Virus record (IMG/VR): IMGVR_UViG_3300020463_000052
Location: 1 to 35,689 of that record
Length of the DNA: 35,689 nucleotides
From: a virus
Strand: one strand, 5' to 3'
In this document: in pieces, positions 531-1,946 of the stretch
How the letters are laid out: each line of letters begins with the position of its first letter
How positions within the stretch are numbered: the first letter of the stretch is position 1
Translations under genes and position numbers: made by a program
Notes under the pieces: generated by a model
The model's input: only the letters and a program-made list of their open reading frames with translations
What the model was told of the DNA's origin: nothing
The model's database searches: none

Positions 531-583
531 CCGTTCATCCTGTTTAGGACGCATGAAAACCAAAGCATGGAACGGGGCTTTGG
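531..583 (+). promoter_or_regulatory. glutamine riboswitch-like RNA (downstream-peptide/glnA class)
   Basis: Three pairings are exact. P1 is CCGTTC (531-536) with GAACGG (570-575). P2 is TCCT (538-541) with AGGA (546-549). CCAAAGC (560-566), inside the P1 loop, pairs with GCTTTGG (577-583) beyond P1 and forms a pseudoknot. This topology and the CGTTCA...GGACGCA...GGAACG sequence fit, from memory, the glutamine-binding downstream-peptide/glnA RNAs of cyanobacteria and cyanophages. The fit includes what follows: a Shine-Dalgarno-like GGGAG at 589-593 and a tiny ORF with a YRG motif at 600. Ligand-dependent control is inferred from the family, and the exact aptamer class was not verified by a covariance model. 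Confidence 0.68.
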
Positions 584-599
584 TATATGGGAGAAACCA

Positions 600-641
600 A
601 TGGTTACTTACGTATATCGTGGCGTCGTTTACACTAAGTAA
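600..641 (+). CDS. very short downstream peptide (13 aa, YRG motif)
   Basis: ATG 600, preceded by GGGAG at 589-593, opens a 13-codon ORF (MVTYVYRGVVYTK) ending at TAA 639-641. The T-Y-RGV-Y core resembles short cyanobacterial peptides of the DUF4278 type and is what one expects behind a downstream-peptide riboswitch. A longer in-frame start at 567 would overlap the aptamer. The small size makes this uncertain; the support comes from its position between riboswitch and terminator. Confidence 0.4.
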   Translation: MVTYVYRGVVYTK

Positions 642-650
642 ATGACAACA

Positions 651-697
651 GAAAGGGAGCACCTCAGAGTCGGACTCCCTTTCACTTTGGCTTTTTG
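651..697 (+). terminator. rho-independent terminator before the capsid gene
   Basis: A perfect 9-bp stem GAAAGGGAG (651-659) / CTCCCTTTC (675-683) with a 15-nt loop, followed after 8 nt by CTTTTT (691-696). It would end transcription of the psbA cluster and the riboswitch peptide before the capsid gene. Confidence 0.65.
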
Positions 698-719
698 CCC
701 GTACGCGGATACCAATTAG

Positions 720-780
720 CCGTCATGACGGTGGGATAGACCACACAATCTAATGAGTCTAACTAAGACTCACACTTTTT
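720..780. promoter_or_regulatory. palindrome and second hairpin in the capsid leader
   Basis: A perfect 12-bp palindrome CCGTCATGACGG occupies 720-731. At 754-772 a 7-bp inverted repeat TGAGTCT / AGACTCA with a 5-nt loop is followed by CACTTTTT, which could be a weak terminator or a 5'-end-stabilising hairpin in the capsid mRNA. A strong capsid promoter is expected in this leader, but I see no copy of the 27-bp promoter-like motif found elsewhere in the window. Confidence 0.3.
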
Positions 781-824
781 CACATGTGAAGACAAAGTAA
801 TATACCCTCAATTTTTAAAGGAAA

Positions 825-1946
825 ATGGCTCAACAGTCAACAGGTATGCAGTCGTCCGTAACTATGCCCGGTGCTAGTAATAGTGCTGGTGATAGACGTG
901 CGCTCTACCTTAAATTATTTTCCGGGGAGATGTTCAAAGGATTCCAGCATCAAACAATAGCTAGGGATCTAATTATGAAGAGAAGCCTTACCAATGGTAA
1001 GAGTTTGCAGTTCATATATACAGGTCGTACATCGGCGGAATATCATACTCCCGGAAACAGTATCCTCGGAAACTCCGACGGTACTCCACCAGTAGCAGAG
1101 AAAACAATCACAGTTGATGATCTCTTAATCTCAAGTGCATTCGTTTATGAATTAGATGAAACACTTGCTCACTACGATTTAAGATCAGAGATCTCAAGAA
1201 AGATTGGTTTCGCTCTTGCTGAAAAATATGACCGTCTTGCATTCCGTGCAGTCACTAGAGGCGCACGTGTTGTAAGTCCTATCACAAAAACTAGCTTTGT
1301 TGAACCCGGTGGTACACAAGTTCGTGTTGGAGCAACTACAAATGACTCCGATGCTTACAGTGCTACTAACCTAATCAACGCTTTCTACGATGCAGCTGCT
1401 GCATTAGATGAGAAAGGTGTTAGTTCTGAAGGTAGAGTTGGTGTTCTTAACCCAAGACAATACTATTCACTTATCCAAAACGTAGGTTCTAACGGTCTAG
1501 TAAACCGTGATGCTCAAGGTTCTGCATTGCAGACTGGTAATGGCATCATCGAGATTGCTGGAATCAAGATTTACAAGTCAATGAATATTCCATTCCTTGG
1601 CAAGTATGGTGTTGCTTATGGTGGAACAACTGGTGAAACATCACCTTCTAATGTAGGTTCATTTGTTGGACCAACAATGGAAGATGCTGAAGATTCAGAC
1701 ACAGGCATTAATAACGACTACGGCGCACAAGCTAACTTCACTTCTTCTTGCGGATTAATATTCCAGAAAGAAGCTGCCGGTATGGTTGAAGCAATCGGAC
1801 CACAAGTTCAAGTAACTTCTGGAGATGTTTCAGTTATTTACCAAGGTGACGTTATACTCGGACGTCTAGCTTGCGGTGCAGATTACTTAAATCCAGCTGC
1901 TTCAGTTGAATTATATGTAGGTGCTTCTGCTCCAGCAGCATTCTAA
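825..1946 (+). CDS. major capsid protein (T7 gp10-like)
   Basis: A 373-residue protein close to the length of T7 gp10A (345), lying just before the tail tube genes as in T7. It is the HK97-fold shell subunit. Recognisable capsid-type stretches include ALYLKLFSGEMFKGF near the N terminus, GKSLQFIYTGRTSAEYHTPG around residue 60, VDDLLISSAFVYELDETLAHYD and the REQYY-like PRQYYSLIQ. The start at ATG 825 has AAAGGA 5 nt upstream. No frameshift extension such as gp10B is evident, because a strong terminator follows the stop directly. Transcription is probably high and independent, with terminators on both sides. Confidence 0.93.
   Translation: MAQQSTGMQSSVTMPGASNSAGDRRALYLKLFSGEMFKGFQHQTIARDLIMKRSLTNGKSLQFIYTGRTSAEYHTPGNSILGNSDGTPPVAEKTITVDDLLISSAFVYELDETLAHYDLRSEISRKIGFALAEKYDRLAFRAVTRGARVVSPITKTSFVEPGGTQVRVGATTNDSDAYSATNLINAFYDAAAALDEKGVSSEGRVGVLNPRQYYSLIQNVGSNGLVNRDAQGSALQTGNGIIEIAGIKIYKSMNIPFLGKYGVAYGGTTGETSPSNVGSFVGPTMEDAEDSDTGINNDYGAQANFTSSCGLIFQKEAAGMVEAIGPQVQVTSGDVSVIYQGDVILGRLACGADYLNPAASVELYVGASAPAAF

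Follow-up and report, generated by a model that had tools for sequence, protein, structure and literature searches.

Layout of the locus and identity of the aptamer

The stretch of DNA analyzed here (the window, a 35.7-kb virus record of 35,689 nucleotides) begins in the last psbA codons and goes on to cover capsid and tail genes of a T7-like cyanophage. Two small ORFs follow psbA, and between them and the gene for the major capsid protein lie an RNA aptamer, a 13-codon ORF and two further RNA elements; no tRNA was found in the window with ARAGORN. The features considered below are as follows.

1–72, + strand: 3′ end of psbA (D1), a neighboring gene; its translation, HNFPLDLASTESTEVALTAPLIG*, aligns with the C-terminus of P-SSP7 PsbA
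522–527, + strand: 5′ strand (CCACGA) of P0, a candidate helix with 617–622 (UCGUGG, Arg-Gly codons), from a swap test and a fixed-register count
529–584, + strand: Glutamine-II riboswitch aptamer, from the RF01704 match and the presence of the contact bases
577–623, + strand: P3, a hairpin in competition with P2, whose 3′ strand (577–584) it takes up; it encloses the Shine-Dalgarno sequence and start codon, and pairs the Tyr-Arg-Gly codons
589–593, + strand: GGGAG, Shine-Dalgarno (SD) sequence, 6 nt from the ATG
600–641, + strand: 13-codon ORF MVTYVYRGVVYTK, a single-unit DUF4278-like microprotein, from spacing, Ka/Ks and the DUF4278 match of a longer relative
651–683, + strand: hairpin GAAAGGGAG/CTCCCTTTC with the 15-nt loop CACCTCAGAGTCGGA, a separate element of 9 bp (651–659/675–683)
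687–745, + strand: separate conserved structured leader before the capsid gene, without an Rfam match, from compensatory changes and covariation
825–1946, + strand: major capsid protein gene, a conserved neighbor, from tblastn, with identities of up to 79% to capsid proteins annotated in cyanopodoviruses

A preliminary description of this DNA, made from its letters, had proposed a glutamine riboswitch-like RNA upstream of the 13-codon ORF, and the covariance search bears this out: RF01704 matches the plus strand at 529–584, scoring 55.6 bits where the cut-off is 33 (E 5.2e-11), the conserved core bases are retained, and no other Rfam family was found in the window. RF01704 is the family Glutamine-II, formerly the Downstream-peptide motif. 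P1, also named in the preliminary description, lies at 538–541/546–549, and comparison with the published structure (PMC6698751) places the pseudoknot between CGUUC at 532–536 and GAACG at 570–574. The helix that had been called the pseudoknot, 560–566 with 577–583, is real and extends to 8 bp (559–566/577–584), but its identity was mistaken, for it is P2. The published glutamine contacts C1, G18, C39 and G40 and the conserved pairs C19:G41 and A33:G42 (PMC6698751) can be read against C532, G551, C573 and G574 together with C552, G575, A567 and G576, all of which are found in the window. Across 87 aligned loci the aptamer core is unchanging, and P1 and the pseudoknot are 99.4% paired in the alignment; the covariation score of P2 is 0.610, with slid controls at 0.088 or below. 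Folded alone in a nested-only energy model, the aptamer does no better than its shuffles (z −0.78), as is expected of a pseudoknotted RNA, and the evidence for it therefore lies in covariance score and conservation rather than in fold energy. A short ORF stands directly downstream, at 600–641 in the window and as YRG ORFs in at least 161 viral loci. Judged by sequence comparison, the element is a real Glutamine-II (Downstream-peptide) riboswitch. A Kd of 190 µM has been published for glutamine binding. Type-2 glutamine riboswitches are ON switches for gene expression (PMC6316151, PMC6698751), and it is reasonable to suppose from its family that the phage copy senses host glutamine.

The YRG microprotein and its genomic neighbors

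The preliminary description had also assigned the YRG ORF to the riboswitch and singled out GGGAG, and both points stand, the latter as a Shine-Dalgarno sequence. A purine-rich, SD-like sequence is present in most relatives, and the start codon lies 29–33 nt past GGAACGG in nearly all of the at least 161 distinct viral loci with an aptamer and a YRG ORF; many of these loci stem from short contigs of a single abundant phage group, which makes the counts non-independent. These loci come from two pattern scans of viral contigs, of which only the second demanded the YRG codons; nearly all true aptamers from the first also have a YRG ORF. Phage peptides consist of one L/V-x-Y-R-G-[VI]-x-Y unit in 13–20 aa (MKVTFVYRGVAYTRVIG in P-SSP7), and longer ones, of 29–39 aa, add a charged N-terminal extension to one unit. 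Phage records already list some of the long peptides as 'hypothetical protein' (L350 2728–2844, STIP37_31; L355 2533–2646, STIP28_41; L358 2739–2840), and PHROG 5049, of unknown function, matches one long form (E 1.1e-5).

Among 59 related phage ORFs of 16–18 aa, Ka/Ks is 0.33 (0.36 when the YRG codons are left out), with values of 1.5–1.8 in the other frames; the ORF at 600–641 thus belongs to a group under protein-level selection. The 13-aa peptide of the window is too short for a Pfam or PHROGs scan, and longer relatives were scanned instead. The best longer phage relative tested did not reach the DUF4278 (PF14105) cut-off of 25.3, scoring 21.6 bits (E 2.9e-4) and covering only profile positions 38–57, the last, C-terminal 20, and host peptides clear the cut-off. 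The peptide, whose role had at first been called unknown, can thus be placed by homology as a single DUF4278 unit, in the sense that it resembles one such unit; a full domain is not claimed. Of 61 genomes sampled from the family to which a Prochlorococcus genome belongs, 42 carry Glutamine-II, with up to seven copies each; this family-level Rfam search was centered on the only two picocyanobacterial matches from a genome-contig pattern scan, itself too loose, with nearly all of its matches due to chance. The host proteins behind the Glutamine-II aptamer are of 33 aa (two units) or 55–57 aa (three units), and the phage peptide is shorter than every host version seen.

Of 26 cyanopodovirus records searched in full, 17 have an RF01704 match above the cut-off, with one copy per record. 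There was no convincing match in Syn5, P60, S-CBP2, S-CBP42, S-B28, S-SRP01 or DSL-LC07; S-SBP1 and S-CBP3 fall below the cut-off, yet encode a YRG peptide. The riboswitch occurs across many phage genera and is near-core in cyanopodoviruses; wherever flanking annotation was read, it has scaffold/psbA on one side and the capsid gene on the other. Comparison of the locus across these phages shows the capsid gene to be a more regular neighbor of the riboswitch than psbA: among the matches listed, the capsid gene is downstream in 100 of 104 loci with enough downstream sequence, usually within ~500 nt, whereas psbA is upstream in only 54 of 87 loci with enough upstream sequence. The slot lacks psbA in S-TIP28 and SS120-1, where the riboswitch still precedes the capsid gene, and S28C3, with no psbA within the fetched region, likewise keeps it ahead of that gene; in P-SSP10, NATL2A-133 and NATL1A-7 the capsid gene is more than 1 kb off, behind other genes. 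Since phages without psbA in the slot keep the riboswitch, psbA is incidental; the special link to the photosynthesis gene that was first suggested is rejected on synteny, and the conserved feature is the position ahead of the capsid gene rather than psbA adjacency. A few viral loci (L129, L172, L180 and L184) pair the aptamer with 45–48-aa peptides that start with the YRG unit and have no podovirus neighbors in reach; they probably belong to different phage groups or represent host DNA.

The hairpin at 651–683 had been read as a terminator. No U-tract directly follows it (the next sequence is ACTTTGGC) and it is not among the terminators listed by the scan, so that an intrinsic terminator is rejected; its loop recurs in many relatives, and the hairpin is also found in riboswitch-less phages. 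The position before the capsid leader, examined at window 651–683, L122 (P-SSP7), L350 (S-TIP37) and L126 3747–3817 (NATL1A-7), is taken by either of two interchangeable hairpin forms: the loop is CACCUCAGAGUCGG in one, and the other resembles a tRNA T-arm (e.g., GGGGGGTTCGATTCCCCCC). NATL1A-7 has an intact tRNA-Gly at the hairpin's place, the only tRNA among 12 sources searched with ARAGORN, and T-arm-like pieces are present in Syn5, P60 and S-CBP2; one possible meaning is a tRNA-derived RNA-processing site at this position. The leader at 687–745 is closed by a GGCN..NGCC helix that shows compensatory changes; inside this lies a strongly covarying hairpin, in most cases with a UACG loop, and a conserved GAUACC is followed by GACGGUGGGAUAGACCACA. 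Its homologues occur in other cyanopodoviruses (e.g., L351 2884–2944 and L349 2881–2939), including the riboswitch-less S-B28 and DSL-LC07, and the Rfam search of window 640–830 gave only weak matches at chance level; it is a candidate that could represent a new RNA family.

Phage-specific helices and the proposed translational switch

The P3 core pairs 582–588 with 612–618 and is extended in the window to 577–589 with 611–623, a region that folds at −16.9 kcal/mol (z −4.41 against dinucleotide shuffles). P3 reaches 88.9% pairing over the 87 aligned loci; its covariation score is 0.288 against at most 0.166 in slid controls, and it shows 55 double changes against 18 ± 3.3 when shuffled, although such shuffle statistics ignore kinship among loci and are inflated by phylogenetic relatedness. 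GGU at 582–584 is common to P2 and P3, both of which covary, and the two helices are therefore mutually exclusive there. P3 is absent in 45 host loci: swapping SD regions against ORFs gives z −13.5 in phages and +1.57 in the host set, and the duplex between the 5′ flank and the YRG codons averages −10.1 native versus −8.34 swapped (sd 0.196, ~z −9) in phages, with +0.45 in the hosts. This duplex-energy swap test was used in place of an all-by-all covariation scan of flank versus ORF, which gave a noisy result, the register not being the same in all clades. In a fixed register P0 has moderate support, being 72.7% paired with a covariation score of 0.159 against a slid maximum of 0.107, and phage copies probably carry it; in the window its register is shifted by ~3 nt, and support at this locus is weaker. 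The YRG Arg codon is CGT in 37 and CGC in nine of 46 cases and never AGA, which makes up 53% in the large genes of the window, and the Gly codon is GGC in 33 of 46 against 7% in those genes, atypical choices of the kind that an RNA constraint would demand. Phages with the longer peptides show no excess hairpin folding (mean z +0.35).

We estimate a probability of about two in three that the Glutamine-II riboswitch acts on translation of the YRG microprotein ORF at 600–641 as an ON switch through P2 and P3. Without glutamine, 577–584 and the SD region would pair with the coding sequence as far as 623, including the Tyr-Arg-Gly codons, and the SD sequence and start codon would be held inside P3; on binding of glutamine to the pseudoknot, P2 would form and reclaim 577–584, and P3 would shrink from about −16.9 to −6.9 kcal/mol, so that ribosomes could start. 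Comparison demonstrates the aptamer, the exclusivity of P2 and P3, the coding selection, the synteny and the difference from hosts, and the literature on host copies supplies glutamine binding and the ON direction, whereas glutamine binding by the phage copy, the part of P3 as switching element and all action of the peptide are what we infer. The energies in the window are near balance (P2 at −9.3 plus truncated P3 at −6.9 versus full P3 at −16.9), as expected of a switch; across the 87 loci the P3-full state averages 3.3 kcal/mol less stable than P2-full, with a wide spread, and the balance is thus not universal. Ensembles computed with P2 forced predict no clear rise in how accessible the SD sequence is (in the window 0.27 either way; 0.40 versus 0.38 averaged) because the truncated P3 still pairs, and the switching step is hence itself inferred. 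The missing gain would also fit an aptamer that senses glutamine and switches as in hosts, through the pseudoknot and the SD neighborhood, with P3 only a general hairpin that damps translation or stabilizes the mRNA, and host copies do switch without P3 (PMC6316151); that P3 occurs in phage copies only, shows covariation and has bases in common with P2 makes this rather unlikely.

The product of the P2/P3 switch would be one DUF4278 unit, a cut-down version of the two- and three-unit host proteins under the same aptamer class, and would most likely act on a target of those proteins while the phage makes capsid. The glutamine synthetase inactivating factor IF17 has DUF4278 as its N-terminal part (PMC6316151); the glutamine synthetase inactivation pathway is a candidate target, and action on host DUF4278/glutamine synthetase control is our leading guess from homology. 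The proximity of the capsid gene in most loci and the conserved RNA elements between it and the mini-ORF would also suit a leader-peptide effect on the capsid gene, in which glutamine-controlled translation of the mini-ORF alters how stable the psbA-to-capsid mRNA is or how it is processed or expressed, and the peptide itself is beside the point, but we consider this improbable given purifying selection on the amino acids, the match of the peptide to part of host DUF4278 proteins and the three phages in which other genes and more than 1 kb intervene. The shortness of the peptide might suggest a decayed remnant, a captured aptamer with a truncated DUF4278 gene whose function is lost, but this is rejected as barely credible in view of the invariant core, the constant spacing, the Ka/Ks of 0.33 and the presence in many phage genera. 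A doubtful extension of the P2/P3 reading is that cyanopodoviruses cut the glutamine-controlled DUF4278 gene of the host down to a minimal peptide of one unit, with the switch folded into its coding sequence, and that at plentiful glutamine this peptide would compete with the multi-unit host proteins and keep host nitrogen assimilation going during capsid production.

Significance and relation to known systems

A glutamine sensor that precedes the capsid gene in the majority of the psbA-bearing cyanopodoviruses sampled would amount to a near-core regulator of an abundant virus group, whose hosts are the commonest photosynthetic bacteria of the ocean; it would have been missed so far because the RNA and a 13–20-aa gene usually go unannotated. 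It would provide a small, concrete system for the coupling of infection to host nitrogen status, the simplest natural DUF4278 unit, useful for finding the role of the family, and a riboswitch in which expression platform and controlled protein overlap.

The closest known system is Glutamine-II itself (RF01704, crystal structure 6QN3), with which the phage copies share the pseudoknotted aptamer, P1, P2, the invariant core and a short downstream ORF, and from which they differ in their capsid-gene slot, in P3 (probably also P0) reaching into the ORF, and in their one-unit peptides. Yfr6, other host DUF4278 (PF14105) genes and the N-terminal part of IF17 (gifB) share the L-x-Y-R-G-x-x-Y motif and the aptamer class upstream, but the host genes have two or three units and no P3, whereas the phage genes have one unit. 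Glutamine riboswitches, likewise phage-encoded, are mentioned for T4-like cyanophages in passages of PMC9964418 and PMC9602691, and a passage of PMC9004378 reports a glnA-like glutamine riboswitch with a tmRNA in phage Melnitz, also phage-encoded but with another target gene; these are other phage groups than cyanopodoviruses, and the passages concerned do not describe the cyanopodovirus locus or YRG peptides. In the searchable literature we found no description of that locus, of one-unit peptides or of P2/P3 competition, an earlier mention being possible. Earlier publications cover the aptamer family and its ligand and also report it from some phages; what is new here is an SD sequence and start codon inside a covarying P3 hairpin that reuses the bases of P2.
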